From Ulota crispa (taxonomy: Eukaryota > Streptophyta > Bryopsida > Orthotrichales > Orthotrichaceae): a stretch of DNA of 64,000 nucleotides. The notes beneath the pieces were generated by a model. It searched no databases and was not told the origin of the DNA. It saw only the letters and a list, made by a program, of their open reading frames with translations. The translations under genes and the position numbers were made by a program. Shown here in pieces: positions 2,468 through 33,719 of this stretch (positions are counted from its first letter, which is position 1; each line of letters begins with the position of its first letter). Location: NCBI GenBank assembly GCA_963920765.1, contig OY987252.1:4945966-5009965 (forward strand). The letters run 5' to 3'.

Positions 2468-5418
2468 TTGACACTTGTCATGCGCGACATCAGACGTCAA
2501 ACAGACAACAAAACAAATAGACCCCAACACATGTCCGACAAGACAACTCTAGCAACAACCCTTCCCACTATGTTTCATTGGGCCTTTGGAATTGCCAAAT
2601 CTGAAGGCACTGTTCATTCTCGCACAAAAGATGACTTATATACATTCAAAAACAAAATTTAAGACCATATTCATTTGCTGTGTTTGTTGTATGCAGATGG
2701 GTCTAGTTCTAGGCATCATACTTCCAATCTAGGCATTCTAGCGGACATCCCGTTAATCTAGGGGAAGTGAATCTTGTGAGTCCATTAGAAGGTGAAGGCG
2801 TTGCTAATGACATTAAGAACTCAAATAGAACATCTCCATTCAGAGATTGCGGAACATGTCGCACATACTCAACAAGTAACTTTTCTAAGTCCAAAAGTTT
2901 CAAATTGTTACAAGAACAAGGGCAACTTTGCACCTCTACTTAACTACAAAGCATGCTTTCTTATTAAAGAAGCTACTAAACATTGTATGAACTAAATATG
3001 CAGCATATTGAATATACAAAACAATTGAGCACATATATGTCAAAACCAAGCATATTCATTTGTTATACAAAATCAACACCTACGGGGTGCTGAAATTGCA
3101 TGAGTTTAAAGGTCTTCTAACAAAGGACAAACTAAAATTGTATTAGACGCGGCTTCATCTACACCCTTGACACCCACTCACCTAGAACACCATCAATAAA
3201 TTTTTTCATAGAGTAAGTGTTTTTTCTCTTCAACTAAGACTCAGTGTATTGCCAAAGCAGCAAGTTGTAATTATCTAAGTTTTGGTTCCATTTTGCAGCA
3301 AGAGATTGCAGTAGTAATGGATGACGTTGATGAAGCTTATAAAGATTGCACCAGAGAAAAAGACAAGAGTTGTACTAGCTTGAAGGAGGCTATGGAGAAA
3401 GCAACAAAGGCAAAACAGAAGTCCTTTCAAACCACATATGACAAGATGAGCGCTATTACGCACCTAAAGGATTGGTCAAGGTGGTTATATGAGGTAGGTT
3501 TTTTTCTAATGCAAATTTGCATTTAAGATTCACGGAATGAAGAGGCTTCAACGCAATGCTTTGTACTGCTTTTTGCTTTATATTTTTCTATTAAAAATAA
3601 GGACTTTTAGGCCTTGTGCTCCAAGAAGCCTCATGGCAGTGAGATGCATTTTCTTAGAGTTTTATATTCAAACAATGGCTGTCATTGCCAAAAGGTGTTT
3701 CAAATTAGAAAAGCCTCATGGCAATGGCAATTGGTCATAAGTTAATTTTTATAAAGTGATGGTTGTAACTCCCAAGACGCATTTTGGAATAGAAAAGCCT
3801 CATAGCAATGACAACATGTCATAGATTAAAAATAAAATAGAGTGATGGTTGTTGCTACCAAGAGGTATTTTGGAATAGAAAAGCCTCAAGGTAGTGACAG
3901 CATGTCATACATTAACTTTTTTTAGAGTAATAGCTGTCATTAGCAAGAGGCATTTTGAAATAGAAAACCTCATGGAAGTGACATCTTATCATAAAATTTT
4001 TTTAGAGTGATGGTTGTCACTACCAAGAGGTGTTTCTAAATAGAAAAGCCTCATGGTAGTGACTACATGGCATAAGTTAATTTTTTTAGAGTGATGGTTG
4101 CAACTTTCAAGAGGCGTTTTGGATCAAAAGAGGCCTCATGGTAGTGATAGCCATTGCTCTAAAAAAAATAAACTTATGACATGCTGTTATTGCCATGAGA
4201 CTTTTTGGATAAAAAAAGTCTCATAGCAATGCCAAATTGTTATAAGGTCATTCTTTAAAAGGGATGGTGGTCACTGCTAAGAGGCATTTCAAATTAGAAA
4301 TACCTCATGGTAGTGACAACTTGCCATAAGTTATTTTTTTTTATAGCAATGGTTGTCATTGCTAAGAGGCATTTGGAATTAGAGGAGTCATGGTAGTGAT
4401 TACTTGTCATAGGTTGTTATTCTTTATAGCACATGTTGTCAAGGAATGTGCCTTTTTGGAACTGAGAACCTCCATGGTAGTGACAATGTTTTTGTTAACA
4501 TTATTTTCTTGAAGTGTTAAAAGATGTAGCCTTCTTGTCTGTAGATTGAAAAAAGCTTCAAGGTATTAATGTCAATCTTGTCATGTTTTTTCTATGAAGC
4601 ATCGCAAAGGAAAATATTAGGGTTCTCAGATCCGTGATGCAATGGCACGTTCTCTTGCATTACAGTAATAGGTGACACAAAATCAATGCACATTTTTCTT
4701 CTTTGTGAATCTCATCACAATGAAGCAATGTGTTTATATGTATGTCTTGTTTTCTTGTTTGCATTAGCGGCACTCTTTGTTTATTTGAACCAAGGCATTC
4801 TTTATTCATTTGGACTTTCATACCTTCTCTAATTCTTGAACCACAAATGTTGTACATTGTAATACAATTTAGGTCTACATGAAACTGTCTATCATTTTAG
4901 TAACCTCTTTTTTGTAGCTTTCATTTGCAGGTATTTCCAACAAGAGCTTGCAAGTAAAGGCGCAATACAGCAAAGAGATGTTCCAAAGCTAATTGATGGC
5001 TAGGTGGAATTGAGTTTGTTGTTGTACATTTTTATGGATAACCAGCAAAATTCTTTCTCCTATTAAGAACTTGTTTTTTGTTTGTGGGATATTGAGTGTC
5101 TCAAGCCTTAAACCATTGTGGAGGAGCTGGTAGAGAAGGGGAAAGCCCATGTTGCAAAATTGGTGGAAGAATTGTCAAAGTAAGAGGAGGAAGTTGATGA
5201 ATCAAATGAGTCAAAGCCCAAGGCCGATCCTAAATTACATTCTCAAAAGTCCCAAGAAGCAGTTAACTATGCCGTGTTATATGCAACATTTTATTGATGC
5301 AAATGTCCCTATTCTATAGTGTTGTAACTTTGAAGAGGAAACAGATTTGTTTGCTAAACTTGTGTTGCAATATTTTGATGTAGATGCAATTGAAACTATT
5401 AGTAGTTCTAGTGATTGA
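2468..5418 (+). pseudogene. Deleted copy of the element G plus-strand gene
   Basis: I see four blocks in frame with the copy B gene. Block 1, 2550-2660, includes TLPTMFHW. Block 2, 2700-2935, includes NSNRTSPFRDCGTC against NSNKTLALNDCGTC in copy B, after an acceptor at about 2696. Block 3, 3294-3491, includes QQEIAVVMDD and KSFQTTYDKMSAIT, followed by a donor GTAGGT. Block 4 starts after the acceptor at about 4930 and ends with VLQYFDVDAIETISSSSD and a TGA at 5416-5418. The match in block 4 is VLQYFNIEAI at the end of the copy B gene. The exons encoding the methyltransferase-like domain are absent between about 5.19 and 5.22 kb. In-frame stops show decay. Function is unknown apart from what copy B suggests. 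Confidence 0.6.
3600..4490. repeat. Intronic palindrome array 1, ~84-bp pitch, 11 units
   Basis: The core GCCTCATGG or its variants recurs at 3628, 3713, 3797, 3883, 3967, 4049, 4133, 4218, 4302, 4385 and 4468, giving spacings of 82-86 bp. Each unit holds a hairpin: GTCACTACCAAGAGG pairs with CCTCATGGTAGTGAC across a loop of about 18 nt. The linker between 4133 and 4218 is inverted relative to the others, so unit orientation changes inside the array. The array lies within the intron between the donor at about 3492 and the acceptor at about 4930 of the plus-strand gene. Confidence 0.85.
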
Positions 5419-6540
5419 GATTTTGCAACTTCATGCTTGAATCTATGACACTTGTGTTCTTTATAATCATCATTCACTTATTAGTGTTTTGTAGAAAAAT
5501 TGGTTGAATTTTATAATTAAAAATTTCCTTACTTCAATGTATTGGAAATGTGGACACATTGCAAATTTAATTTAGTCTCAAATAATGTCTTGTTTTTACT
5601 AATTTCATTTGCCAAAGGCTATTGTAGACTTTCAACCTTAGAATAAATCCTCTCATCTTCTTTCACTTGGTTACCGTCCATTGAATATGTTGGTGTCCTT
5701 TTTTGTGATAGAAAAGTATTTGATTTACGCCTTTGAACCCTAAATCCTCATATTTGTAGCACTGTTTTTAGGATGCATTTGGCCATCTTGAAAACCTACA
5801 AACATGCCAAAGTTGGACTCATATTCAAAAATGTCCGTTGGAGTTTTGGTTTGTTCTCTACTTTTTGAATTCAAAAACCTTGTTCAAAAATTTTGCCTTG
5901 AAAATTGGACCTCCTAATCCCAAACCCTAATTGCAATAAGGCTATATTCAAATGTTGTCTTGGGGTGTTCTTTGATTCTCAAATGCCAATCTCATGTTCA
6001 CCTGTCAACTGTTGTATTTTATTTTCTCTTAAATATCCTTGATTGTAAAAATTCAAGTGATAGAAATTGTATGGATATTTTTACTCATTTATAATTGTAC
6101 AAGTTGATATTCTAATTGAAAATTATCCTAAACCCTAATACTCTTGCTTACAGAGCCGCTTCTCTTTGATCATTGTGTTTGCCAATTTTCTCTAATTCTT
6201 GGTATAGTTGCAAAAAAAAATTGTCATCTACTTCCAAAATACTTTTTATCTAATATTGGTCTCTAATTTGTCTACGCCAAACTTTGCAATCCTAAATCGC
6301 TCTATAATTCATCCACATCAATCCAATTTTGCTCTATCTTCATCCATTTTTTATCAATACATTCATCTAAACTATTTTTCATTCATCTAGTAAAATGAAT
6401 GCTATGGATGAAATTCATCTATCAAGTTTTTCCTCATCCATCCCTATAAGATTATTACCTATTTTAGGGGTTTCACAATTGAAAATTTCTCTTCATTCAA
6501 ACTATTTTTTGTGCTAATATTAACTTACTCTTGTTTTCCA
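5419..6540. other. Gene-free subterminal region of copy A with telobox-like motifs
   Basis: I see no coding sequence after the stop at 5418. The motif AACCCTAA occurs at about 5736, 5923 and 6131, as it does in the matching region of copy B. Runs of CATTCATC/GATGAAT near 6330-6450 resemble the sub-end regions of copy B at 8130-8150 and 28390-28540. Confidence 0.5.
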
Positions 6541-6601
6541 ATGCTTAGCAATTGCTGCTCATCCCTTGTCGCTAGTCGCTCAATGCTCAAGAACCAGCAA
6601 T
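6541..6601. repeat. Right terminal repeat of element G copy A
   Basis: This is a hexamer-rich end (GCTCATCCC, CGCTCAATGCTCAAGAAC) finishing GAACCAGCAA at 6600. It aligns with the right end of copy B (GAACTAGCAA at 28719) and, as reverse complement, with the left end of copy B at 7813. It marks the boundary with element M. Confidence 0.65.
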
Positions 6602-7794
6602 CAAGCAAGGGAATGAGATTCCTCTAAACTATTTGCGTAGCTAGACAAGGGGAAACAATGAATAGCATCCATGGTTGTTTGTGACAACTCATTCTCCATA
6701 ACCAATGGTCCTGCCAATATGGACATTTCAATGGAATTGAGTATTGTGAGAAATTGCGTAAATTGAATGTCTCACAAGGAGAAAATAATTATATGAATGT
6801 ACAAAGCCAAAAATCCTGCCTATCCAAGTTGACTAACCTACTTAGCTAGCCAACAAGGATGAAAATAAGCAAATTCAACTCAAATTGAGTTGAAATGACA
6901 GTTAGAGAGTCACTAGGAAGCACTTGGAGAATTAGCAGTCATAGGGTTCAGTCACTGCTCATTGTTTACATGAGCTTCTATGTTTGGCACTTCAACATTG
7001 CCATCCACGAGGTTGATGGCATTAGCGTCAACAACTGCCTCATTCAACAAACGTTCACCAACCAAAGATTTGGATTTCCCAATCTCCTCATGATCTGCAT
7101 TGCTAGTTCTTCACTCTTGGATAGATCCATTGCTCGATGATGACTCAGGTGGCAACGCCTTTGAGGTTGCTCAAGAGCGTGATTGTGTACTTGCTCTTGC
7201 CACATCCTTCCGGGCGCTGTCCCTCAATCCATGGGCACATTTGTTGATCATGAGAGGAGGCAGCAAATCCGCTCTAGGAATGGACTATTGGATGGGCATG
7301 CCTCCCATTATTCTTGGCACTGACGCTTCTGCAACAATACTTACTAAAATGGGCAGAGCTTTCATGAGGTTTTGCATGAAGTTGTTTTGTTCTTGCCTTG
7401 CTTGCTTGTAATCATTTGTTTGATTCTTCATAAACTGCAAAATCATTTGAGTATCCAAACTAGGCACAATGGCTTGTGACTGCCTCTTGCTACGTTGACG
7501 AGAAGATACAAGGGGGTCTTGCTTGTCATTGGATGCTCCTGATGAATCATTGGAATCAAACTTTGCACTTGAAGCCGGTGGTGTCCTAGGAGTCTAAGGC
7601 ATTGGCTAAGGCACTAGCTCATTGGCACCTTCATTCTAGCAATTTGGCTCATGTGTGTCTAGTTCAATGACCTTTGTGTCCGCCTCCTCTTTAGGCTTGT
7701 CTTCTTCTTTTGACATCCTATGTTTGCCCTTTCCAACGCTCACGCTCTTCCTTGCCGTTGACAAGGAACCCTTTGCTCCACGCTTCTTCTCAAA
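6601..7794 (-). pseudogene. Downstream exons of element M gene (severed from 28.7 kb)
   Basis: This reads leftwards from the copy B insertion. It opens with DHSRFEKKRGAKGS, which continues the SKYVIDHSR at which the gene breaks at about 28.72 kb. Next come a lysine/serine-rich segment (ARKSVSVGKGKHRMSKEED), a linker and a helical glutamine-rich segment (7285-7467, QMILQFMKNQTNDYKQARQE). An intron near 6.71-6.89 kb carries the element M palindrome at 6874-6894. A last exon (about 6601-6704) ends SLEESHSLA and then a stop whose final base is the junction with copy A. Several in-frame stops are present. The C-terminal tail looks basic and low-complexity, and I recognise no domain in it. Confidence 0.6.
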
Positions 7795-7812
7795 CCTGCT
7801 GTGGTCAACAAC
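7795..7812. repeat. Left target-site duplication of element G copy B (18 bp)
   Basis: CCTGCTGTGGTCAACAAC lies directly before the left terminal repeat. The right-hand copy at 28721-28738 is CCTGCTGTGGTCAATGAC, with 16 of 18 bases identical. In the minus-strand frame both encode the V/I-D-H-S-R codons of the interrupted gene. Confidence 0.7.
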
Positions 7813-7878
7813 AATGCTAGTTCATGAGCGTTGAGCAATGAGCATTGAACAATGAGCACTAAATGATGAGCAACGGGC
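7813..7878. repeat. Left terminal inverted repeat of element G copy B
   Basis: The sequence is made of GAGCAATGAGC-type hexamers. Its reverse complement aligns with 28660-28720 and with 6541-6601. The AT-rich stretch from 7879 to 8332 holds no gene. Near 8130-8150 it contains the hairpin GGATGAAAATCATCC, which resembles the sub-end sequence on the right side. Confidence 0.65.
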
Positions 7879-8340
7879 AATGTTTAGTAACAATTGGGAA
7901 TATATTAATATATTTTTACTATAATTAGAAAATTCTATCTATAAATGGAATGTATACCCTATTAGTAGATGATTTTGGATATTATTTTGATATTTTCAAT
8001 GAATTTGAAAATTTTGATTTTTATTATAAGAAGGGTTTTAGTTTCCTTTAAAGTTGTTCAGTTCAAAAAGTATCAATTGGTTCATTTTTCAAAGTCAAGA
8101 TTCTAGAAATTATTTTTCCGCATGGATGAAAATCATCCATCCAATATATGTATCTTCCATTACTTTTGTTGTTGTTACTTCATTTGGTCATCATGAATTC
8201 AGTATACATATGGTAGATTGCTATTTCAAGTAAAACAAGTAGGAAGTAAGAAGTATAATATGGCAAAATGATGTCAATCTATGGAATTAATGATTTGTAG
8301 TATGTTCTACCTTTTAACTAATATTGTATAAAATAAAGGC

Positions 8341-9488: not shown

Positions 9489-9496
9489 ATAAAGGC

Positions 9497-10704: not shown

Positions 10705-11151
10705 CTAAGTAGCGGCTCTTCCAATGACCTGCTTAATATCATTGAAACTAAGACTTGGAGCATGTATGAATTTGTCCTCATTGTAATATGTCTTGCAACT
10801 ATACTTGTAAACATAATACAAGTGCTTGCAATTCACCCAGGTATTCTTTTTTCCTAAAGAAGTAGCACTCACTATAACAAAATCCTTGCAGGTACATGAG
10901 GGAAAATCAAAGACCGTGACTTGATATGTCTTTCGAGTTGGTCCAATACTTGATTGCAATGAAATTATCATTCCATACCTAGGAAGAGGGATTGCAATGA
11001 TAGACTTGATGTTACATTTTGGATTTCTAGTTGTTTCCCATTTGTTCCTGTGATCAACTAAAGGCGCATTTGGATTACGCCCAATTGTTTGCCCGAGTCT
11101 TTTTGTGGAGTGCTGACTGCCACCAGCTATTGGTTGCCTTTGAGTCATCAA
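10705..11151 (-). pseudogene. SWIM-finger exon of the copy B transposase
   Basis: The finger residues are visible as FPSCTCKDF and then WVNCKHLYYVYKYSC, giving C-x-C-x(n)-C-x-H. The basic segment before it (KRLGQTIGRNPNAP) is shared with copy A. The tail SLSFNDIKQVI matches SLSFDEVKQFL in copy A. The finger binds zinc and probably DNA in this protein class. The frame is open over 148 codons, longer than the copy A piece. Confidence 0.7.
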
Positions 11152-12359
11152 ATCTTTATAAAGATTACTTGCATTTCAAGGTTCATTGATGTCACAAAAC
11201 AATTGCTCAATTGCTAGGTCCTCAATTGCAGTTTCCAGCTAAAATCCAGCAATTCTAGTGTCAAAATCTTTGATTTTGTAAGATGCGTCCCTATAGCAAT
11301 GGGCCATATATGTGGCAACGGAGGACAATTGAGAGCCCATTTCACCTTGGAATCACCTGTACAACGCATCACATCATCTGAGCAGAATTAGAAGTAGAAG
11401 TTAATGGTTTTCCTGGTTGCATACTTTGTCATGCTTCCATTATAAGTTGGCGCTAGAATTCTAGTCTCCTTTTTTGTATTAGCCTTCGCAGCACATCTCT
11501 TTGTCATTCTAGTTTGTACTCCATGACATGTCTTTCTTGCTTGGAAACACCTTGCAATGTGCCACTATTTTGGGTTGCAGTGTAATTTGTTTATACTAGT
11601 AGCATGAAGAAAAACTAAACTTGGTTCACCTGTATGTACTGATTCTGGTGTCAACATATCACGAACAACACGTGCCTTACTAGATCTTGTCTAGACTTCA
11701 GGAATAGAGTAGTTCACTGTATTGTGACAATGAGAGTCCCTATCCAAACTCGGAGAAATATTAAGTTTCCTCTTAGACGAAGCAAAGACCTCTTCCCTCT
11801 CCAAGTGCGGAATTCAAGTATTGAAGTGCTTTGCATCTGGTAGTTTTGCAACTACGTCAGCAAACTTCACCAGATTTTTTGATAGCCTTGCTGCACGCAG
11901 GCAAAGCTCGTCCATATTAGAGCCTTTTCCAAAAGGGTGACCTTTGAGATATGCCCAATGATTAGTTAATTGTTGAATATCCCGCATCATGTCATCAGTT
12001 GTTGCATTGTAAAGGCAAACCTTCCTTTTTCTTCACATTTATTGCCACTTGTTGTGAACCGTCTCCAACAAGTTGCAAGAAAGCATTTCAGCAAGCTCAT
12101 CATGATTTGATCCTTGCAAGACATTTTGGAACAAATTGGTCAATGAATTTATATAAAATCATGCATTGAAGAGAAATACCCCTGTTCCAAGATATGCAAG
12201 AAAAAATAGAAAATACAGGATATAGTCCCTTAAACTGCTAGCATCCAAAATGAAGATCTCTTGTACTTCTACAAATCATTTGACATACGCATTCATAGAA
12301 GTAAAGACAAATGATTGCTAATCCTAAGTTTAGAAATACAATGACTTCATTTCTTATTG

Positions 12360-13085
12360 CTAAAAGATTATGTTTTATTGTTCTCAAAGATTTTGAATTT
12401 GATATTCCTCAAGTAATCAAATTTTGTGTCATACCAAAGTAGGAAATTATTTCCATATTTCTAAAATTTGAGGGATTTTGATTCCAAAATCCCTCAAGTG
12501 ATCACAGTATCAGTTATACCAAAGTAGGAAATAAAACCATAATGATTAGACTTGAGGAATTTTGATTCCAAAATCAATCAAGTGCTAAATTTATTGGGAA
12601 TACCACACTAGAAAATAAAACCATAAAAATCAGACTTGAGGGATTTCAATTCTAAAATCCACCAAGTTTCATTATTATGGTTTCATTCCTTAGTATGGTT
12701 TGCCTAGTAAATACATTATTTGAGGAATTTCAAAATCAAAATCCCTCAAGTCTATAATAATTATGTTAATGAAAATATCAAATGTCATGAGCAATAGTTA
12801 GACTTGAGGAATTTTTGATTCTAAAATCTCTCAACTGAGCAAATTCTTAGGCACTTTGCAGCTATGGATGATCATTGAATATTTGATCACCACAAGGGTT
12901 TTGGAATCAAAATCTTAAACCCTTAATACAGTTCACAAAGTTCTTGATTTTGGTTAAAGATACGTTATAAGTCTTTAAGGATTTTGATTCCAAAATCCCC
13001 CAAGTCTTAGTATTTGGCACTTTTCTAAACTCATATAACTACATCACAATTCATCACCTCAGGCATTTCAAATCCAAAAACCTAA
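12360..13085. repeat. Intronic palindrome array 2, ~84-bp pitch, 9 units
   Basis: Nine palindromes of the type CTTGAGGGATTTTG / CAAAATCCCTCAAG follow one another. A fixed point in each falls at 12405, 12490, 12574, 12658, 12742, 12827, 12913, 12996 and 13080, giving spacings of 85, 84, 84, 84, 85, 86, 83 and 84 bp. Linkers 0-2 share ATACCAAAGTAGGAAA. The linker at about 12667-12715 carries the reverse complement of this, so at least one unit is flipped. The array lies between transposase exons of copy B. Confidence 0.85.
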
Positions 13086-14477
13086 GCAAATTGTAAAAAA
13101 TGACTCAATGTACTTCTACTAACTTACAAACATTTACTAAGATTAAACAAAGTAGAAATGCTGACTAGAGCAACACTAGGAGTGCAGCCTTTGAAAAAAA
13201 AGAAGTTATCACATACCATTTGAAGATATCCACCCCATTGAAGATATCAAAAATACCAAAAGTTGAGCCAGTCATCCAACTACCTCAGATTCTCCTTGGG
13301 GGCAGCGCGTGATGACAACCACCATCCCTTGATGCCTAGGTATTGCTCTTCTGCTTCATTCATGGACTTTGAATCCTTACATTGTTTGCGCAACTTCTTG
13401 TGTGTATTTCTAAGCTTTGGACAAATGAGTTTGTCAATGTGCCTATTTAAAGATGTCATGCAATGGAGTAGATATGATTGCTTGCGGTCTTCCATTGGCT
13501 TCAATTTATCTCCACTTCCATAAACAGCTCTAATGGTATGCCTATTAGCCATTGCATTGTCAGCCATGAACTCTTTAAAATTTGGTGAAGGTACTCCGCG
13601 ACAAGCCATTACATTGTTCAACAACCTCCAGATTTGCTCTTGAGCTTTAGCTTCTTCACTCATCATGTCACACACACAGAATTGTCATCACTCAACAGTA
13701 CTCGGCATCATAAACATGGGATGCCAAGGAGGTCCATCCCTTCACCCTCTTCACATGGTCAAACATGCATAAACAATTCTCCAAATCTCCAGCTGGTTGC
13801 ATTTGCTTGACCAAGTCAACCCACCATCGGCTCCCTGTTCAGACATTTTAAATAAATACACCTTCTCTTTATCCTGACCAGGAAAGACACTATCATGTAT
13901 GTACAAGTACATGCTTTTTGGTTTTTGAGACATAATGTTGTCTATGGGTCCCTTGTTAGTGTCACTGCAAAAGCTAGATATTTTATTTTGTATACTTGGT
14001 GAGCTAAAAATACAAAACTCATTCATGATAAATTCTAGAGCTTCTCCTTGCAGGAAAATTTGTTGACCCTCACATTCATCCGAGCAGAGTAACTTGCTAG
14101 CTAGGTATTCTTTGCCAGCTCCAAGGATGATTATTGAGTTCTTAGCTAAAGGGGTTCTAATCATTTGCTAACTTATTAGATCAAAGCTATGTTCAATGGA
14201 ATCTTGGCTAACACCTGTGCTCAATGGGTGTTTGTGAACGCCCAAATGAAGACAAGTCCTAGTTGAGCCAACAGCTGTCAAGATTTTATAAAATCTACAA
14301 TGACATTCAAACTTGCAAGATGGAGGAACCTTGCAAATTTGACATACAAGGTTAGACTTGGGTGGTGGTTCGTATCCTACAATGAAAACAAATGGCAAAA
14401 ACCCTTCCCACTCTGTCTCATTGGGTGTGTGAAACCAACAATTGTGAGGACATTGCTCATTTAGACATATAAGATGC

Positions 14478-16030: not shown

Positions 16031-16243
16031 CACTAGTAGAAAACTGCATTGAAACCCACTAAAACATGTCTAGTTGTTTTTGTTGAGTTCCTTGTTTCCA
16101 ACGTAAAACTCAATAGAACAACTTAAAATTTTGCAAAATTTCAATGCAAAAACTCATTCTAATTCAAAAACCTATGTTGGAAACAAGGAACTCAACAAAA
16201 ACAACTAGACATAATTTAGTGGGTTTCAGCAAAGGTTTCCTTC
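16031..16243. mobile_element. CACTA-like hairpin MITE, right end degenerate
   Basis: It begins CACTAGTAGAAAACTGC and holds long inverted arms (GTTGAGTTCCTTGTTTCCAA against TTGGAAACAAGGAACTCAAC). The phrase CCCACTAAA...TTTAGTGGG is shared with the MITE at 33153-33349. The terminal bases on the right are lost, and I see no duplication. It lies in an intron of the plus-strand gene. The surrounding sequence (15540-16499) shows nothing else. Confidence 0.6.
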
Positions 16244-19196: not shown

Positions 19197-20145
19197 GCAA
19201 TGTGAACATGTTAGAATTTTTTTTATAATGTCTATAATAGTGTATTAAATTGATGTTGATTAGTGGTATACTGTATTGCACTAGTTTAGGTCCTCATATT
19301 TGTCTTGAGTGAACATTATCATCTATTGGATTACTAAGCATTATTTGGATGAACACATATTCACTTAATTTCACTATCTGCACCTATTCTAATCTTTGTT
19401 GAAAGTACAAATTGATGGAGCATGGACATGTGAAAACAAATAAGGTCCATCTATTACGTTGCACAAGATAAATACGTACAATGTTCTAACTTTGTCTGAC
19501 CTTAAGGATCTTCTAACGGAAGATGAATAAAAAGAATTTGAAGGTCGGCCTAAGAATCCCTCATGGCATCCATTAACCAGGAAAATCTTCATCACCTTTC
19601 TCCATACAGTAAGTTTCTATTCTTTTTAGCCTCTTGTTACTTAATTTAATTACCGTTGACCTCTATACTCATGGTTTGTATTTTGTCTAAATGCAGCAAG
19701 AGATTTTGGTAGCAATGGAGGCGGCCGCCAAAGCTTACAACACCAAGACCAAAGAAGAGGACTGCCCTTCCACAATCTGAAAGACACAATGGAAAAGGCT
19801 AAAAAGGCAAAGATTAAGTCTTTTTTTGCAGAATTTGACAATATGAGCGCCATCACTAGTCCAAAAAATGGCGTGTAAGTGGCTTCAAAAGGTTAGTATT
19901 TATTCATTAAAACTCAAAACAAAAAAGCACATATACTTTAAGATAAAAAAAAATAGAAGTACAGTACCTTAAATTTGTATATTTTTGTATAATTGACCTA
20001 GCAATGTGAGATTGGAATAGGAATTTGACAGGCATATTTTCCACTACATTAGGGTTTTTTTTAATCTAAAGCATTTTGCACAAGCAAGTATTTAGGAAGA
20101 TTTGTTGGAAATGGCATTGGAAACACACAAACATTCATATAAAGA

Positions 20146-20550
20146 GGTGCCGCTGGATGTGTTAGTAGGGCTCTTGTTCCCAATAGCCCTACTAGCACAT
20201 CCAACGGCACCTTGTTGGAACAAGAAGTCTTGATCTCCCGTAAGACCCATAAGGTCTTTTAGAAACAAAAGAACTCCTAGGTCCTATAGGAGATCAGAAG
20301 TTTTGGTTTGAATAAGGCGCCGCTAGATATGCCAGCACGGCTCTCATTTCCAAGAGCCTTGCTGGCAGATTTAGCAATGTTTTATTGGAAAAAGCAGTCT
20401 CGATCTCTTATAAGACCAAAGAGGTCTTCTGAAAACAAAAGATTTCCAAGGTCTTTCAAGAGATCAATATCTTTCCTTGTATGAAGCATTGCTAGATGTG
20501 CCAATAGGGCTCTTGAACAAGAGAGCCTTGCTGGCACATCTAGCGGCGCC
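20146..20550. repeat. Intronic palindrome array 3, alternating units, 85-bp pitch
   Basis: Five large palindromes of two alternating kinds follow each other. Their centres are at 20178.5, 20263.5, 20348.5, 20433.5 and 20517.5, so the pitch is 85, 85, 85 and 84 bp. Kind 1 is GGTGCCGCTGGATGTG pairing with CACATCCAACGGCACC. Kind 2 is bounded by GATCTCC and GGAGATC and contains AAGACC/GGTCTT. Sequence between centres is also conserved, so the array equals one 85-bp unit repeated head-to-head and tail-to-tail. It lies in the same intron of the plus-strand gene that holds array 1 in copy A. Confidence 0.85.
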
Positions 20551-21242
20551 ACTAGGGAACTATAACCAGGCGGATATCTAAACCAATCATAAGACCTAAT
20601 GACTCTTTTGGAGAGGAGAGACAAAAGAGGTTTTAACAGTGGTCAGCAAATTATTTATTTTAAGTTTATTCTAGCTTTGAAATAGTGGATGCCTTTTGGA
20701 AAGAAGAGCCCTAATTGTTGTTATGTAAGGGAGAGAGTGTTTCAATTAATTTAGGAAAGGCACTGCCAAGGTCATCATATTTAGGTAAACTGACACCAAC
20801 AAAGTACAATGTAATTTTTGTAGATTATATTAGTGCGAGGGAAATTTTATCATGTATAGTGATTCTCATTTAACCTTATTGGCATAAATTGTGTGATGAT
20901 GTTCTTTAGTTTTTCTAGCACTGAAGTTTAAATGAGAGAATAGAAATGTCTCAGGAGAAACTCTAGCTATTGTCAACATCTTTTGTATAGCCACTAGTAG
21001 AAAATTTAACACAAAATCAACAGAATTTCAACCAAAAATTGTTGATTTTTTCTGTGGATTTGGTCAAGTTGATTTAGGTACTTTTCAACAAGAGTATGTT
21101 GATTTTTTGTTGATTATTTGCTATTTTTTGTTAATTTTCTATTGGTTTCCTATTAATTTTCACATATTTTATGTTGTTCAATTCTTCTTATTTTTAATCT
21201 AGTTTTTTTTTTCATAGAATTTTTTTTTTTATAAAACAGTGA

Positions 21243-21412: not shown

Positions 21413-21925
21413 ACTCACACATGTGCACAATAGTATCATGATTGTATTTGTACATTAAATATTCATGTTTTTAGTAAGCCAGTAGACTTTGGAGGCTATT
21501 TCCGCCCATTAAAGGACTTTTTTTCAAAATACTTAGAACTATAAAAAGTTGGTAAATGTATTTTACTTTCACCTCCAACAATTCTTTTTGGGTTTCAATC
21601 TTTTTATCAAAAGTTATGACCTAAAATCAGAGAAGGTGTTTAGAAATTTTTTAAAAATTGTTTATTTCCATCCTTTTGATTTTGTTTCTAAATTTTTATT
21701 GGAATTCACAAATCTCAAAAAGATTGTTGCAGGCAAAGGTTGGATTCATTAATAGTTATTATTTAGTGCTAGTTTTTTTGTAAAAAAAACCTTATTTTGT
21801 TAAAATAGCCTTCATAGTTTGATAGCTCTAAATAACATGAAATTGTGAAAAGTCACGAAATTAAAACCTTGCAATTATAAAATCATAATTCTATTGACTT
21901 TTGAATAGTTTTGGATATTTTTTAA

Positions 21926-22337
21926 GGGCATTAATATGTGAACCACACCCTTTGAACTACTGTACCACACCCCCGGGGTAAATTTTAGATTTCTACCATC
22001 AAAAATTTGAGTTTGAGAATTTTGACTTCAAATTTGGACTTAGAGACCATGATATTGTCTAGGACCATAAAAAAAGTTGCAATTCAACAACACCCAATGA
22101 AAAGGCTTATCTTTTTTTACAAACAAAAGTAAAATTAATAATTTTCTCCCTAATTACACGTTTTCATTGGGTGTTGTTGAATTGCAACTTTTTTTATGGT
22201 CCTAGACAAAACCATGGTCTCTAAGTCCAAATTTGAACTCAAAATTTTCAAATTCAGCTTTTTGATGGTAGAAATCTAAAATTTACCTCGTGGTGTGGTA
22301 TAGTAATTGGAAGAGTGTGGTATACATATCAATTCCC
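21926..22337. mobile_element. MULE-type MITE with ~170-bp inverted repeats
   Basis: It starts GGGCATTAATATGTGAACC and ends with the inverted equivalent AATTCCC. The arms pair over about 170 bp, including TTGCAATTCAACAACACCCA and its complement. It is flanked by ATTTTTTAA (21917-21925) and ATCTTTTAA (22338-22346), a 9-bp duplication with one difference. Length, long inverted repeats and 9-bp duplication fit Mutator-like elements. Confidence 0.75.
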
Positions 22338-23288
22338 ATCTTTTAAAGCTTATAAAAATATTTTATAAGATTGTTTTTTTTTAATTCATTTGGTTAGTAA
22401 TAGAAGGAAAAATACTAAAAATACCCTTTAAGACTTTCAAAATATCAAGTTTATGCCGAAAATATTTGAAACATCAAAAATATTCCTTATTTTTTGTAGG
22501 AATATCAATTATACTCCTATTATTTTGGAAAAATAATAAAAAAGCTCTTCTATTTTGAAATATTAAATATATCCTTGTGTTATTTGAAATATAAAAATCA
22601 CCTTTGGTTTCTTGTAAAAATTTGCATTAAACTATACAGTTGGTTATCATATATTACAAAGATATATATAATTAAAAATAGTTGAAGAGCATTTTTAATA
22701 TTTTTCCAATATGTTAGAAGCATTGTTGATATTTATACAAAAAGGAAAGGTATTTTTGGTACTTTTAATCCTTGAGGGACATATATGATTATTTCAAACA
22801 ATTGAAGAGCATCTTTTATATTTGTTTGTAAAGAAATTTTGGTATTTAAAACAACAAAATGTTGTACTTTTCATATAAAATTTTGTTGAATTAGTGAAGT
22901 TGTGTCCAAAAGTGTCCAGATCAATAAAAAACTGTTGATTTTTTGTTATTATGGTCATGTTTTTATTTGACTTTAAAGGCTGCTAATTTTAAATCTAACC
23001 AAATTGTGAAAAGTAAAGAACATAAAACCAGTCAATGTACACTCAAACTTCTAAAAGATTCTAATTTTTTTGAAAACTTCTTTCATTTTTTAAAACTTCA
23101 AAACATTTTAATGAGGTCCAAAAAGATTCTAGAAAGATTTCAAAAACAAACCTAAACTATTGTAATAGTTGTTTTACTAAAAATATTTTCAAGTGTTTTG
23201 ATGAATTACAAAAAGATTCCTAAAGGACTCTAATTCAATTTAAGAGATTCTATTTCTATAAATAATTTGAAGTGTTTTAACAAATTTC

Positions 23289-23860
23289 ATGAAGATTTTT
23301 AAAAGATTCTCAAAGATTCCAAAAAGGTTCTTGAAAATTCTCAAAGATTCTCAAAGATTTTTAAAATTTCCCAAAAGATTCTCAAAAGATTTCCAAAGAT
23401 TTCCAAAGATTTCCAAAGATTTCCAAAGATTCCCAAAGATTCTTAAAGATTTTGGAAGCTTTTCAAAGCTTCCAAGAAGATTCTAAAAAGATTGTTAAAG
23501 ATTTTTAAAAATTCTCAAAAAAATTCAAAATTCCTAGAACAGTTCCAAAGATTTTCAAATATTCCAAACTATTTTCAAAGATTCTCAAGAACTCTCAAAG
23601 ATTCCTAAAAGATTCTCAAAGATTCCAAGAAGATTCTCAAAGATTTCCAAAGATTCTCAAACACTCAAAGATTTTGGAAAAACTTGAAAAGATTTCCAAA
23701 GATTTCCAAAGATTTCCAAAGATTCTCAAAGATTCCTAAAAGGTTTTCAAAGATTCCAAGAAGATTCTCAAAGATTCTAAAATCTTGAAAAGATTCTTAA
23801 AGATTCTTTAGATTCACAAAAATTCCCAAAAAATTTCCAAAAGATTCCAAAAATTCTGTT
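23289..23860 (+). repeat. Degenerate AAAGATTCC minisatellite
   Basis: Repeats of CAAAGATTTC, AAAGATTCTC and AAAGATTCCAAG follow in units of about 10-13 bp, with four near-perfect CCAAAGATTT units at 23395-23430. This creates an artificial lysine/phenylalanine-rich open frame that is not a gene. Confidence 0.75.
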
Positions 23861-24147: not shown

Positions 24148-24300
24148 CGCCAGAAGAAAACTATGTTGGAGTCAACATAATCTACATGATGTTTTCTTGT
24201 TCCTAACACAAAATTTTGCATTGGAAACATGAAATCTTGTGTTGGGAATAAAGAAACATCATGTAGTTTATGTTCACTCCAACACAATTTTCTTCTAGTG
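24148..24300. mobile_element. CACTA-type hairpin MITE with TGT duplication
   Basis: The left end is CGCCAGAAGAAAACTATG and the right end is TTTTCTTCTAGTG. The arms (ATGTTGGAGTCAACATAA and its partner) pair over about 65 bp. TGT flanks both sides (24145-24147 and 24301-24303). It lies in the intron just upstream of the block at 24356. Confidence 0.75.
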
Positions 24301-24355: not shown

Positions 24356-25160
24356 TTGCATATGCTTTCTGATTTTGATGTTAATTCATACCATTCATCA
24401 CCCTTTGCTAAAACTTGTGGGACACAAATTGAATACAAATGTGTGAAGTTGACAAATTCTAGGCTTGAGGAGGAAAAGCTTCATATTGAATGGGATGTTC
24501 ACCCTATAGTTGACAAGATTATTGGTTACATTGAGCGAAATAGAAGTATTTTGTGGGAACACGCCTTTCATACTTTCTTTACTCCAAATGCTTCATATAC
24601 TTGCGGCATGGCTTTCATGAAGCAGGATGGCACCAAAATTGCTTTTTAGCAATGTATTTACAAATTTATTCAACGTACTTGTTAAGAATAAGGCAATTGT
24701 AAGTTAATTAATATTGTACGTTTCTTTGTTTGGTTGGGCAATTAAGTAGTATGTGGTTGTTGGGCCTGGATTTTATGCAAACAAGGAAATTTGTGTCCTA
24801 ACATTTGGCATGTGAGTAATGCTTGTATTCTTGAATTTGGTGCAAGTATTTCAAACAAAAGCTAGCAAAGAAAGGTGCCATCCATTGATGGCAAATTTCA
24901 AAGCTATTTGGTGGCTAGGTGGGGTTGACATCGTTGGATTGCATTTTTACAAAAGAGTAGAGTGAGATTTTAGTTATGAGGAACTTGTTGCTTGCTCCAG
25001 GTACACCAAATGTGAGGAGTTGTATGCGCCTTCCAAAAAGGTTGTAGAAAAGGGAAAGGCCCCTTTTTGCAAACCAAATAAGGTGGATGTGGTGGTGAAG
25101 AAGGGAAAAGCCCCCGCTGTCACTGCAAAGGATGATAATGGAGAGGAGGGAGATTAGGAG
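24356..25160 (+). pseudogene. Exons preceding the methyltransferase-like domain
   Basis: 24356-24648 is an open block with ERNRSILWEHAFHTFFTPNA and CGMAFMKQDGTKIAF. 24848-25160, after an intron, begins near VFQTKASKERCH and includes LGGVDIVGLHFYKR and ACSRYTKCEELYAPSKKVVE, then a lysine/glutamate-rich linker. The second block aligns with 4930-5190 of copy A. I do not recognise a catalytic motif here. Its position before motif IV makes it the probable N-terminal neighbour of the methyltransferase fold. Confidence 0.45.
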
Positions 25161-27021: not shown

Positions 27022-27128
27022 AAGTTGTGTATTTCATTCACATTTCTATCTGCTATAAATAATTACATGAACTATCAAATTGAACAGCATGATGATTTTT
27101 ATGTACTGACAATTGAGTGCATTTGGCA

Positions 27129-27310: not shown

Positions 27311-28659
27311 TAGTTTTTTGAACTCTACTCTTGAGATTGTGACTGATCCTTTTTTGTTTTGTTGTGCCTTCCATTAATGGTGATCTAGACAATGCAATGG
27401 AATTTTTTTAATGGTAATACACTAATTTCATAAGTGCCAAGAAATGAAACAAGTAGTTGCATTCCAATTAAATTGAATGACTGTTGTGACATATCTTTCT
27501 TTCCTTGAACCCACTTAAACTAAGATGAACCCTAAACTATATGTCCTCTAATGTTTTTCAAATTTGTGCTCAAAGCCAGAATTGACGCTTCTAGTATGTT
27601 TTGTCCCACAAATATTTTGCCTTCAACAAACTCTGAACCTTGAACCCTAAACTTTTAACATCCTAAATTTAAAACCTAAACCCATCTACATGGAGCATAG
27701 AACCTAGAATGTTGCAAAAACTTGAAGATGTTTAACACAAACTTCTGAAATTGTAAACAGCTCTTCAATTTGAAATGATCATTTGGTAACTAGAAATCCC
27801 ATATTCTACAACAAAAAAATTGTAAACCTTGAAATGGAATCCTCCAACAATGTGGCAATGCAGCCCAACATTTCTTCATATATAAATACTCTAAACCTCA
27901 AACCCATAGAGGCTTTTCAGACATTATACGCTTTTCAGGGTAAGCGAGATGCTTCCTAAACCTTTAAATCAATAACTTGACATGGGGAATGTTTTCCTAA
28001 AACCCTAAATCCTAAGCCAGTGCCTCTAAACTAAACCCTAAACCCTAATACCTTATTTCCTTAAATCCTCAATAGAAATTGCGATGTCTTTTCACATTTG
28101 TTTAGGCTGCCTATTTTAAAACCCTATTCCATGTCCTCCATTTGATTTACAGTCAAACATTAAAGTTGCATTTACTTCTATTATTGTTAATGACCCTATG
28201 ACCAGGTCCCATGACATATTTCATATATTCAATATATTGCATCATTTCAACTCCTACTAGTAATATTCCTTCCCTGTAGTTCTCACTCATTCTTTGTTGG
28301 ATGAATCCTATTAAAATATTGTACCTAGAGCCAATACCCCTTATCCAAGAAGTCAGTGTCATATATTGTTCCCAAACCTCTGAACAAGTTTATTTTCATC
28401 AATCCATTGGATGTTTTCCATCCATTACTAGATGCCTTCATCCTTGACAATTACGATTTCTTCCACAACACAAACATAGATTCATCTATTTTAAATTTCA
28501 TTCATCCATCTAGATAAATGTTCTAGATGTAGTCCATCCAACATGAAATTTTTTCTAGTTTTCTCTTACATGATCAAATATTTTTAGTCATTCTTAATAT
28601 AATAGTATGATATTTAACATTATTTACTAAGATTATTACTAAACCATGAATATGTGCCA
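27311..28659. other. Gene-free subterminal region of copy B with telobox-like motifs
   Basis: There is no coding. AACCCTAA or close forms occur at about 27528, 27643, 28000, 28033 and 28040, including a tandem pair CTAAACCCTAAACCCTAATA at 28031-28050. Copy A has the same motif three times in its matching region. CATTCATCCATC phrases near 28400-28540 belong to the sub-end repeat. Confidence 0.5.
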
Positions 28660-28720
28660 ATGCTCAATAATTTATGCTCATTGCTCATTGCTTGTTGCTG
28701 AACGCTCATGAACTAGCAAC
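28660..28720. repeat. Right terminal inverted repeat of element G copy B
   Basis: GCTCATTGCTCATTGCTTG then GAACGCTCATGAACTAGCAA. This is the reverse complement of the left end at 7813 and collinear with the copy A right end. Confidence 0.65.
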
Positions 28721-28738
28721 CCTGCTGTGGTCAATGAC
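28721..28738. repeat. Right target-site duplication of element G copy B
   Basis: CCTGCTGTGGTCAATGAC directly follows the right terminal repeat and matches 7795-7812 at 16 of 18 positions. Confidence 0.7.
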
Positions 28739-29368
28739 ATACTTGGATTCAAGGAAATCATCCTTGTCCATATGCTCAAAGCCCTTCGCAAGCTCCACAA
28801 ACCTATTCTTATGTTTGTTGTTGATGACAACAAAGTGGTACATGGATTTCATTTGCAAGAACACGACAAACAAAATACCAATCTACATATAGTTCAACTT
28901 TAGTTGAGTTGAAATCAAGCAATCAAGACATTAGCGTAATGAATAATAAAATGAACATCAAAGAGACATAGAGATTTAACTCAAGTTGGAGTGAAATTCA
29001 CTTACCCATGCAGCGCATACGATATTCTCCCTTGCAAAGATGGAGACAATATCTTGTCTCGCTGAGCTGAACATGTTGAGAACCTTCAAGTAGAACTCCA
29101 TCCTTAGCTTTGTGTTGTACATCCTATACAGCAGCTTATTGTACAGCCCCGTTTTGTTGTACCTGTTAGTATTTGGAGCAATGAATGTCCTTGGAATGCT
29201 CTTTGGATTTATTTTAGAGCCATTTTGGATAAAGAAGAGCAATTGCTTAGGATTCTTTGCCTTCATTGATATTTTGGGCAAATCTTGTACTTGTTTGTTT
29301 GGTGATGGGAAGGACAACGCATTTTCTACTGTAAATTCTCTACCTACTTATGAGTCCAAATGTGCTAC
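28739..29368 (-). pseudogene. Methyltransferase-like C-terminal segment of element M
   Basis: Two exons flank a clean 123-nt intron (28883-29005, donor GTAAGT, acceptor ATGTAG). The first exon holds LRMEFYLKVLNMFSSARQDI then VSIFARENIVCAAW. The second continues FLQMKSMYHFVVINNKHK and FVELAKGFEHMDKDDFLES. The pattern of a helix, D-x-V-x-x-x-F, a degraded glycine loop, a helix and then a hydrophobic strand resembles motifs X and I of beta-class DNA methyltransferases, and it parallels 26455-27021 of element G. I see no motif IV. It could also be a non-enzymatic Rossmann-like domain. Confidence 0.35.
28893..28996. repeat. Paired palindromes beside both splice sites of an element M intron
   Basis: TTCAACTTTAGTTGAGTTGA at 28893 and TTAACTCAAGTTGGAGTGAA at 28977 lie about 10 nt inside the acceptor and donor of the 123-nt intron. 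Their centres are 84 bp apart. Related palindromes occur at 6874, 30385, 30464, 32814, 33046, 33414 and 33496, all in element M. Confidence 0.7.
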
Positions 29369-30601
29369 CTGAAATGCAATTCAATCTCTATGTCGCCAGC
29401 AATCTACAACCAAATGCGGGGATCTGCTAACTGAGGTTAGTTTTATAGGCCCAGCTCATCGAGGATGTTGTTGAAGTAAGGAGCTGTACTTAGCTCCTTG
29501 TTGATGATGCCCAAGATATTGCGGAAATCCATGATCCCAAACTTCAAAGTTGACTGTAGCAACTCATTCCATACATTTGCCGGCCATTCTCCCAGTTGGC
29601 CTTTTGTCATGTCATATGCTTTATAGTAGACAGTTGCCTCCGACTTGTGAAACCCGCCTTTGCTTGATAGGAAAACTTTGAAAAACTCCTTTGCATAGAG
29701 TGACAATTTGTGGAGTTTCTTCAACTTGTTGGTGGGCTTCTTCACTTCGACAAAGAACTCCTCTCCTAGTCCATTGAGGAGGGTGTTCATTGTGGCAGGT
29801 GTAACGTTGTATTTGACCTAGAACGCCTTCCACTCTTCCCTCTTGAATGTGCCTTTTGGTTTGACCAATCAAATGTTAGGTTTCTAGTAGTGGATGCGGA
29901 GTTTTACCACTCTCTTCCTCTTGCATTGTTCTAGCCAATCCTTTGCAAAATAGCAATCCATGATGCAACGGGCAAGTTTTTTCATTGTCACCTTGGGATG
30001 CAGCAACTACCACTTAGGGATTTTGTTGAGGATGTGCAAAGCAAACCTCTTCAAGTTGTTCTCCAAGCAGTTCTCCATCCAATTGAAGAATTCTTGGGTG
30101 TTAACGCCATCTTTCTTAACATTCCAAGATTTCTTGTCTTTGAACATCAAATATGTTTTGGGATCAAGTAGTTCTCTTGCCAAGGTGTTGTAGATGACTT
30201 CCTTCCATAATCATAAATTGGCTTTGATGCGGTTATGATCTTGATCTCATTGTGGATGGCAACGTCCCTCTTCTTTTCTAGCATCTAGTTCTTTGTGACG
30301 CCAATGCAAGAAAATCGCATCTTCATTGCTTGTTCAAACTCTTGCAGTTACATAATAGTGGAATACAATTTAAAGATAATCAAGTTTTAACTCGAGTTGA
30401 GTTGAAAGCATGTATAAAAGAGAAACTGGATATCAAAATGAGGAGGACTAAAATGGATTTCTGTTTTACTCAAATTGAGTTGAACCTTACCGCATATTTT
30501 GCTTTGTTCTTCTTGTCCCTCATTATCTGTGACGCGTTCACAACTTTGCCTAATTGGTTGGCTTTCTTTGGAGGAGTTGAGGTCCCAAGATTTGTCCATA
30601 C

Positions 30602-31328
30602 GAGTAGTTGCAAGAAACACTTCACAATTTTGTCTGAAACACCCTTAGTACTGGTAGTACTAGGTAGTACTATGACTTTTTGGAATAATTTTTTTAAAAT
30701 AAAATAAAATATGGACAATTTGTAAAGCACTTAAAATAGCATATTTGTGAAAATTCATACCTAGAAAATTTTTATTCTAAAAGCTATGCGCAAAACAAAA
30801 TCACCAACAAAAAGCCAATTTTTTCTTGCTTTTTAGAAAATAGTAAAATAATTCAAAAAAATAAAATAAAAATTGGCCATTTGAGAACCCATTCAACCCA
30901 TTTACATGGTATAATTGCTTTGCTGAGGAATTTCTTTGTATTTTGCCAATGAAGGGAGATAGGATGCCCACTTTGAGACAATGTAGATGCCATGGAATTT
31001 ATAATTTTGCAAAACCCTTCTAGATATGCATGTAAGCATGCTCCATAAACATCCTTGATTTATAGCCCTAGAAAAGCTTTTTTGGACCCAAAATTGTACT
31101 GAAAACCCCCAAAATGGCCAAGGTACACACCTATTTGGGGGCTATTCAAAAATAGTAAAATAATTTTAAGAAAACTGCAAAAGTTATGGAAGGTTTGTAA
31201 CTATGACATGTACCTTTCTCTGAAATTTCAGCTCAAAAGAACTTGTTGTGCAAGAGTTATAAGCCAAAAAGCACTTGTAAGAGGTGAAGGGGACAAAAAA
31301 TAGTCAAAAGTATTTCTTGCAATCACCC
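30602..31328. mobile_element. ~730-bp MITE, copy 1, with ATAC duplication
   Basis: Ends are GAGTAGTTGCAAGAAACACT and TATTTCTTGCAATCACCC (inverted), flanked by ATAC on both sides (30598-30601 and 31329-31332). It has no coding. It is the inverted counterpart of 59304-60046. It breaks a coding block of element M. Confidence 0.75.
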
Positions 31329-32182
31329 ATACAAACTGACCTCCTATAATATTTGTTGCCCACATGGGCAAAAAATTTTGGAAGTAGGTCACTCAGTTGT
31401 AATACGTGAAAATTTTTTGGATAATTTTGTCATCCTTGTTCTACATGATAAAACACTCCCACATGGAGCAAATCTTTGCTTTGTCCTGCACTTGTGGCAT
31501 GTTGTGCATTCTCTTTCATGCCTCCACCAAGTGCTGCCCATTGATCATCCAAAACTTGAGATCCTTCACCTCTTCAAAAGATTTGGGCATCTCGTTTAAG
31601 TTTTGAAGCATGGCGCACAACGCCATATGCATCTTCAAATCTAGCATGTTGATAAAGAAGTTTAGAGCTTTCTTTAGGCTAGCCTCTTCAAGGACTCAGA
31701 GGTTGAAGTTTTTTGGCGGCATCTCTAGCTGGTCAATGCTTATGAAGTACTTATCTTCCACGCTTGGGATGTAGGAGTCTATGCAGGCTACCCAATACTC
31801 CTCATACGCCTTGCTAGACACATTGAAGTTGATGTCTTGGTCTCTCTTGTCAATGTCCTTTAGGAGATTCTCAACTTCCGAAGCCACACAACTCTCCACA
31901 ACCAGCAAAGCTTCCTTTATTTTCTTGGCTGATTTGCCTCTTGCTTTTTAAGCCAATGCTAGTATTGTGGAGGGTGTCCCTCTTCCATCCACATGTGTTG
32001 TCTTCTTCTTGGTGTGACTTTGCCTCGTACCAAGAATCTCCTTGTCAAGCGAGCCGCAGCTAGCACCTTGATTGCTATAGTTGCGAGTAAAGGATACAAG
32101 TTGCATCCAGTTTGTCTTCTCTTTGCTCAACACCTTTGCTTTTTGGAAGTCAGTGACAAGAGCGTTGCATTGCGTACACAAT

Positions 32183-32305
32183 CACTACAACACAATTATG
32201 GGCATTTTATGACTTGAAGTTATGACTATTGCAAGTCACTTATAATTCTAAATGACTCACATCAGTCATAAGTCAAAGTCAAAAAATGCTCATTTTGTTG
32301 TAGTG
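32183..32305. mobile_element. 123-bp CACTA-type MITE with AAT duplication
   Basis: Ends are CACTACAACACAATTATGGG and TGCTCATTTTGTTGTAGTG, flanked by AAT on both sides (32180-32182 and 32306-32308). It is inserted in an element M coding block. Confidence 0.8.
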
Positions 32306-32845
32306 AATGTCTTTGCTAGGAGTGGACCTCCATCTTTAGACAACCAATGTTTTTTCTAAATGAGTTTATCCCGTTTTCCTTGTAGATCCAAGAACCTAGG
32401 AGTTTGTGAAGCTGTTGTAGTAGGTTGATGGGGAGAATTTTGTCTGACAATTGTGGATGGTATATGTGAAAATATATTCTACATGCTAAATTTGGATTGG
32501 TGGTGATGCATGAGATGAGGACAGCATCACCTAGTCCGTTGCTCACGAGTGTCACTCTCTCGTGAAGCGACATTGGCAACATTGCTTCACAATTCTTGAA
32601 CTATGTCTTGAAGCTTAGTATGCTGCTCATTGCCACAAGCGTCAGCGTCTAATACTAAACACCTTGAGGCTTTTTGAGTTCCAAATTTCACCAATGACAT
32701 TGTCATCACCGTACTCAGTAGCTTCATTTTTTGATAAGTTGAGTTTGCTGTAGTAGACCTTGAGTCTTGTCTTCTATTCCTCCATTGTTATGGAGGAAAC
32801 ATTTGATGATAAGTTTTACTCAACTTGAGTTAAAGTAACTTACTA

Positions 32846-33015
32846 AATAATAGAAGATATTTTATATTTAGTAGTATGTCTCCAACTCAAAATTGCACTA
32901 AACAACACAATGTATTGCGTTTTCTAGCAGAATTTTGAATTGGAAACATACAACTCCTTACAAATCACTAATGCAGTGAGTTCCAATGCAGTTTCTTTCC
33001 ATTGCAAGATAGTGG
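32846..33015. mobile_element. Degenerate copy of the 33153-33349 MITE
   Basis: It shares GAATTGGAAACATACAACTC, ACAAATCAC and GTTCCAATGCAGTTTC in the same order as the MITE at 33153. The ends are eroded and no duplication is seen. Confidence 0.6.
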
Positions 33016-33152
33016 AATTCATTGATGGAATTAATTTGTGCAATAGTTAACTCAAGTTAAAGTGTGTTGTGCTTCATTGAGTCCTCTTGATTTCAGATTT
33101 AATTATTTTTGTCAAACTTGTGTTTCATGGCTCACTAGTAATTTTTTCTTTA

Positions 33153-33349
33153 CACTAGTAAAAGATATTTTGTTGGAACCCACTAAATTATGTAAGGTAG
33201 TTTATGTTTAGTTGTATGTGTCCAACTTGGAATTGCACAAAATAACGCTAAATATTGTGTTGTTCAAAAAATTTTGAATTGGAAACATACAACTCTTTAC
33301 AAATCACCTTACATAATTTAGTGGGTTCCAATGCAGTTTCCTTGTAGTG
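33153..33349. mobile_element. 197-bp CACTA-type MITE with TTA duplication
   Basis: Ends are CACTAGTAAAAGATATTTTG and CAGTTTCCTTGTAGTG. Inner arms are AACCCACTAAATTATGTAAG and its complement. TTA flanks both sides (33150-33152 and 33350-33352). Confidence 0.75.
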
Positions 33350-33719
33350 TTAGTTATTTTGTTGTATTTAGGCAAAGACATTATTAGGGGTTTGTTAGTG
33401 TTTTTATTTGTGGTTTTAATTCAAGTTGAGTTGAATCACAAACCTTGCATGCTCAGGCTGTCTGGCTGCATGGCCTTTGTTGAATTCTCTCTTATAATTT
33501 CAACTTGAGTCAAGTTGAATTGTGAAAATACTGTTGTGTTAGTGGCATTCAACTCAAGAAAAATTCATGTTTTCTTAAATGTCACTTAGTTTTGGTGCTC
33601 TTTGGTCTATATTCTTTGGTTGTCTGAGCTTTAACTAGGGTCGAGTTAAATTTCATGAATGCCATAGCACTTTTTTCTAACTTTTGAGTTAAACTGACAT
33701 TGAGTTAAAATAACAGCAT

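Follow-up and report, generated by a model that had tools for sequence, protein, structure and literature searches.

The locus and its host element

The window analysed here is a stretch of 64,000 nucleotides from Ulota crispa (assembly GCA_963920765.1, contig OY987252.1, positions 4,945,966 to 5,009,965). It holds two copies of a dispersed transposable element, which we call G, and three arrays of palindromic tandem units are found in introns of these copies. Array 1 (3603–4510) consists of about ten tandem palindromic units of 84–85 bp, and the unit at about 4124–4209 is inverted. Array 2 (12390–13085) is formed by about eight units of 84–85 bp with a palindromic core of about 34 bp, and the unit at about 12651–12734 is reversed relative to the first three. 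In array 3 (20143–20553) the unit is 169 bp long and contains two different palindromes, giving five centres about 84.6 bp apart. No strand is assigned to any of the three. Array 1 lies in the first G copy and arrays 2 and 3 in the second. The initial annotation had described them as palindromic arrays, and for these three the observation is right; the palindromic tandem arrays are real.

Arrays 1 and 3 were annotated as lying in the same intron of the two G copies, and their flanks bear this out. Array 1 is preceded by an exon of the second G gene (3290–3493, plus strand), with a GT donor directly after it as judged by eye. The corresponding open stretch before array 3 in the other copy (19660–19875, plus strand) has a DNA match at 19692–19740, and its part 19774–19869 matches the exon before array 1. 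The two GT donors align by eye. Behind the arrays, the segments 4926–5031 and 24842–24946 (both without assigned strand) match each other. Since the same two homologous segments flank arrays 1 and 3, both arrays occupy the same interval. The intronic position given for array 2 was confirmed as well: this array lies in the opposite-strand gene, between an exon that we label DDE-like from its sequence pattern (13283–13684, minus strand) and the next exon (11817–12032, minus strand).

The C-terminal exon of G is found at 753–1181 in the first copy and at 10708–11175 in the second, both on the minus strand; it is labelled SWIM-like by eye for its C-x-C…C-x-H pattern. Our genome searches covered 274.8 Mb in 157 contigs, of which the eleven large ones, C1–C11, span 41.4 to 6.3 Mb; the window lies on C11 (6.3 Mb). 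Exon 10708–11175 gave 150 scored matches among 235 candidates, spread over all 11 large contigs, and G is a dispersed transposable element with many copies across the chromosomes. Exon 3290–3493 has 18 genome matches, 16 of them outside the window. As compared by eye, 13 of these 16 lie 2–11 kb from a match of the C-terminal exon and are oriented away from it; for two the distance is about 25 kb, and one has none near. Twenty G loci were taken from the C-terminal exon matches: the two window copies and 18 others, referred to below as the relatives.

The opposite-strand gene of G may be Mutator-like, as we read its sequence patterns, but the Pfam model for Mutator-like elements (MULEs) does not match it. 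The MULE transposase domain PF10551 has 54 genome-wide matches, none of which is in the window or, compared by eye, closer than 20 kb to any of the 20 G loci, and the open reading frame (ORF) 13283–13684 gave no hit. It is possible that G is a diverged MULE. The Pfam SWIM model matched one of seven relatives at E 0.53, below the cut-off, and neither window copy. Pfam searches of three sets of open stretches (10, 10 and 7) gave no match over the cut-off. No significant Pfam match was obtained for the pieces of the second G gene, and no relative of the VANC proteins was found.

Structure and pitch of the arrays

Array 1 matches itself at shifts of 85, 169, 255, 339, 420, 505, 590 and 674 bp. For array 2, Tandem Repeats Finder (TRF) gives a period of 84 bp, and self-shifts of 169, 252, 256, 337, 422 and 506 bp are seen; the self-shifts of array 3 are 170 and 339 bp. 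Direct shifts at multiples of one unit count for tandem duplication. The palindromes in all three arrays are imperfect, and their inverted self-similarity is strong. The inverted units, one in array 1 and one in array 2, sit in register, which fits inversion between palindrome arms.

The fitted pitch of the main centres is 84.07±0.19 bp in array 1, 84.78±0.28 bp in array 2 and 84.55±0.26 bp in array 3. The errors are too small, because the seeds were already spaced by about 84 bp and the centres, a few of them weak, could move by only ±6 bp in refinement. The annotated pitch of 84–85 bp stands for these arrays, while for two palindrome pairs in another element, M, it was rejected: the best centres lie at 28903/28985.5 (82.5 bp) and 33427.5/33509 (81.5 bp). 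Their scores are 7.0, 6.8, 6.6 and 10 on a background with 95% and 99% levels of 6.8 and 8.8, so that three of the four are near background and only the centre at 33509 stands out. One palindrome per 84–85 bp was an imprecise description, since arrays 1 and 2 have a symmetry centre every 42 bp or so and array 3 has two palindromes in its 169-bp unit.

A scan free of seeds detected 50 palindromes in the window, against 13–19 in three first-order Markov shuffles. Their pair spacings, counted in 6-bp bins, pile up in the bins starting at 84, 168, 252 and 336 bp (5, 5, 3 and 3 pairs). For comparison, we used a hand-chosen sample of eighteen 10-kb stretches (L005–L022, 180 kb), 17 on C1–C10 and one on C11. 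Its 152 palindromes give 1, 2, 3 and 0 pairs in the same bins, and no tandem array with 84- or 168-bp units and no 84-bp palindrome peak was detected in it. In this small sample, therefore, such arrays are not equally common outside the element. Arrays 1–3 are head-to-tail tandem arrays as in satellite DNA; they are neither long nor of high copy number, being 0.4–0.9 kb in length with no further copies among the scored candidates.

Sequence relations between the arrays

The annotation had called the sequences of the arrays unrelated, and we indeed find no mutual homology among arrays 1–3 at E≤1e-3. Nor do they align at this level with the arrays found at the 3′ end of G in the relatives (see below) or with a family of 338-bp units elsewhere in the window. 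No other genomic copy of array 1, 2 or 3 is among the scored candidates. Shared words are close to expectation for the pairs 1/2 and 2/3, and arrays 1 and 3 share eight 9-mers against 3.3 expected (sd 2.0), a weak hint of relation.

The 338-bp family is tandem, with units of 338–340 bp at 36752–37500 and 38305–39331 whose halves are about 165–166 bp apart, and has 74 genome-wide matches. The array is interrupted by a stretch with an ORF resembling that of a long interspersed nuclear element, as judged by eye. It was not counted with the palindromic arrays: it showed no self-matches in inverted orientation and is part of a different dispersed family.

Arrays in the relatives of G

Thirteen of the 18 relatives carry an array behind the C-terminal exon, with a self-shift of 167–169 bp. 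These 3′ arrays are mutually homologous at 64–94% identity, and TRF reports 167–168 bp in 12 of the 13 and 147 bp in L042. Two copies translated in three frames are full of stops. In the eight relatives analysed for symmetry, the main dyads occur every 168 bp, with weaker ones near 36–42, 72 and 126–132 bp and none at 84 bp. The array of L033 is less regular, with an additional period of about 280 bp. In L045, a 154-bp array is present in the corresponding region, and in L047 a two-copy 74-bp repeat behind the C-terminal exon is seen by TRF only. No array was found behind this exon in L032, L037, L044 or either window copy, and L030 shows no lag there above shuffles.

The intron of array 2 was followed through the same loci. 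A lag of exactly 84 bp is present in L032 (score 27, the highest of 60 shuffles being 13), along with a perfect 20-bp palindrome; the locus ends within this repeat region. In L037, palindromes recur at lags of 82, 94, 170 and 175–176 bp. The repeats of these two relatives are largely different in sequence, but a 69-bp stretch of L032 aligns with the end of array 2 (71%, E 3e-5), at a different place in the intron. L037 retains a 21-bp piece resembling the palindrome of array 2 (E 0.09), and L037 and array 2 have 16 9-mers in common where 7.7 would be expected (sd 3.6). Both matches are hints, drawn from sequence likeness, that the repeats of this intron may have a common origin. In L032, L037 and L044 the DDE match is absent within the locus. 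The remaining 15 of the 18 relatives have both exons flanking the array-2 intron, the two matches being about 340–380 bp apart and the first 620 bp free of self-repeats.

The pitch thus recurs in the relatives but drifts. It is not universal: lags of 82, 94 and 170 bp occur in L037 and a 154-bp unit in L045, and the main dyads of the 3′ arrays come only every 168 bp.

These numbers also bear on the possibility that the likeness of arrays 1–3 is a coincidence sharpened by selection on the reader's part, G holding tandem arrays of many unit lengths of which three similar ones were noticed together. Unit lengths or lags of 74, 82, 94, 147, 154 and about 280 bp among the relatives speak for it, as does the sampling, in which the three regions were chosen for looking alike and few arrays are independent. 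The agreement of arrays 1–3 within about 1 bp, the 84-bp lag of L032 and the 168-bp spacing of the 3′ arrays speak against it, and we consider it somewhat unlikely.

Origin of the arrays

We favour the explanation that arrays 1–3 are satellite-like tandem arrays grown in introns of the dispersed transposon family G, in which unit length outlasts sequence, and give it about an even chance of being correct. A short palindromic seed would have been duplicated in tandem within a noncoding part of G. Unequal exchange, together with occasional inversion of a unit between palindrome arms, would then expand and homogenise each array. Substitution and turnover would erase the similarity between copies faster than insertions and deletions alter an inherited unit length. 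With similarity lost faster than unit length changes, homologous introns may hold unrelated sequences with a similar unit length. This scheme would account for most of the observations.

That unit length outlasts sequence is directly seen in the 3′ arrays, where identity ranges from 64 to 94% and all 13 keep the 167–169-bp shift. In array 1, arms in corresponding positions resemble each other more across units (16.0) than the two arms within one hairpin do (12.5), as is expected if whole palindromic units were duplicated. Three observations weigh against this explanation. In array 3, the reverse is seen: similarity is higher between the two arms of a hairpin (20.0) than between the same arms of other units (15.5), a comparison of three units only. 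Inheritance within one intron leaves the pitch shared by the array-1/3 intron and the array-2 intron unaccounted for. And with no repeat in the array-2 intron of 15 of the 18 relatives, an ancestral array would need to have been gained or lost in individual lineages. Because arrays 1–3 were chosen for looking alike, the occurrence of two different introns near 84 bp and of 168 bp in a third place may be coincidence.

The initial annotation had suggested either a hairpin mechanism or selection on the 84–85-bp geometry, and the tests of cause do not support it. Slippage or template switching at hairpins could make and correct the palindromes, or selection could keep RNA hairpins in the introns. 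Under hairpin correction or selected RNA pairing, arms would be expected to match their partner in the same hairpin better than arms of other units. A first arm test, with 52 and 24 of 2000 permutations in two sets, seemed to favour such a process, but it had optimised own pairs only; the fair permutation test is null in all five sets (p 0.31, 0.89, 0.60, 0.33 and 1.0), two of which hold only 2–3 units and none of which includes the 3′ arrays of the eight relatives. The ratio of G-U to A-C mispairs on the sense strand is 21:9 in array 1, 12:14 in array 2 and 14:18 in array 3 (sums 47 and 41); the lean to G-U is confined to array 1 and the bias is inconsistent across arrays. The fold energies of arrays 1, 2 and 3 are far below those of shuffles (z −11.9, −11.6 and −16.6), but palindromes must fold in this way and the low energy follows from them. 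The inverted units would also fit, yet a hairpin or RNA mechanism is highly improbable.

A chromatin ruler was considered too: duplication or retention would follow nucleosomes and so yield units close to half a nucleosomal step, one step or two steps (84, 168 and 338 bp). It would accommodate the periods of 84, 84, 169 and 168 bp as well as the 338–340 bp of the unrelated family at 36752–39331, and nucleosomal unit lengths and dyads occur in satellites (PMC8122249). But the A/T power at 10–11 bp in arrays 1–3 (6.6, 7.3 and 1.7) is below the 95% level of 8.3 in other DNA. The same holds for three of five other arrays; the second part of 36752–39331 (11.9) and L043 (9.4) exceed this level. Pitches of 74, 154, 82, 94 and 147 bp occur besides. 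Such a ruler is quite unlikely.

A broader variant, very unlikely in our judgement, would have palindromic arrays arise independently and repeatedly in G introns at about 8 helical turns per palindrome, with a physical ruler, either a bound protein multimer or a half-nucleosome step, setting the spacing and leaving the sequence free. Were it true, repeats would be made by a sequence-independent rule. Should unit length and symmetry indeed outlive sequence in transposon introns, the arrays offer a compact natural test of whether inheritance, chromatin or a binding protein sets the length.

Other repeats in the window and the sampled genome

The region 32837–33356 matches itself at a shift of 340 bp and has dyads spaced by about 169.5 bp. 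It was not counted with the palindromic arrays, as it holds palindromes of about 180 bp, two of them with the 340-bp shift, from a dispersed family resembling foldback elements or miniature inverted-repeat transposable elements. Kin are found at 16039–16239 and 24152–24296, and the family has 81 matches among 287 candidates. Foldback DNA is abundant in the sampled genome: within the 180-kb sample, inverted self-matches of up to 1.5 kb take up 11% of the DNA. At 21462–23857, three long palindromes (380, 459 and 539 bp) lie side by side and are followed by a AAAGATTCTC-type minisatellite; this arrangement recurs in L007 and, reversed and partial, in L010. An inverted repeat pair lies about 28 kb apart at 30601–31304 and 59327–60047, with pieces 72–90% complementary, and a 133-bp unit is directly duplicated at 55200–55456 with 85% matches. 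At 44509–46119, a 536-residue open frame contains a repetitive Met-Ala-Asp-rich stretch, with 12- and 24-bp DNA repeats at 44967–45045.

Comparison with known systems

In the titles and abstract openings surveyed, palindrome arrays of fixed pitch in transposon introns are not named. A satellite of Palorus subdepressus is described as a 72-bp repeat with inverted repeats and 144-bp dimers (PMC8122249). Inverted repeats within tandem units and a monomer-to-dimer relation are common to it and to G, with 84 and 169 bp. The G arrays differ in being only 0.4–0.9 kb long, in lying within transposon introns and in having no other copies among the scored candidates. In aphid Phantom elements, a minisatellite follows the transposase ORF according to a table in PMC6446971. 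This arrangement is similar to the 167–169-bp array of 13 of the 18 relatives, whereas the tabulated hosts are animals and the window arrays are intronic, neither window copy showing an array behind its C-terminal exon.

In the Arabidopsis VANDAL elements, which are Mutator-like, noncoding tandem repeats are the targets of VANC proteins and diverge fast, as set out in the main text of two studies (PMC5735166, PMC10398659). As far as these texts describe them, they are like the G arrays in being tandem repeats of a DNA transposon, located in introns or elsewhere in its noncoding DNA, and in differing strongly from one related element to another; noncoding tandem repeats diverging between copies are what we observe in G. 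In other respects the two differ: the word palindrome is absent from the main text of both studies, the genomes are different, no VANC relative was found for G, and a short motif common to the noncoding regions of one element was not found in arrays 2 and 3, which belong to one copy (six 8-mers against 10.0 expected and two 9-mers against 2.6, none above chance).

By this precedent, the palindromes could be sites for a dimeric protein of the element, a transposase or a VANC-like anti-silencing factor, with the 8-turn spacing kept while the site co-evolves with the protein. The palindromic form and the closeness of 84 bp to 8 helical turns agree with such binding-site arrays, as do the fast-diverging repeats of VANDAL introns and other noncoding regions in the studies cited above. 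The 3′ arrays also share an excess of 8-mers with the sequence upstream of the C-terminal exon (observed/expected 34/18.7 in L029, 33/17.7 in L035 and 40/20.4 in L039), but in 12 of the 13 relatives no alignment goes with it (L042 has 28 bp at E 0.003), and by eye the upstream region looks coding. The 154- and 168-bp units depart from a spacing kept at 84 bp, and arrays 2 and 3 lack the common motif. Binding sites are thus an unlikely explanation. The VANDAL tandem repeats are the closest precedent for the G arrays, which, as they stand, extend the range of fast-evolving tandem repeats known from DNA transposons by a case that is palindromic and intronic.

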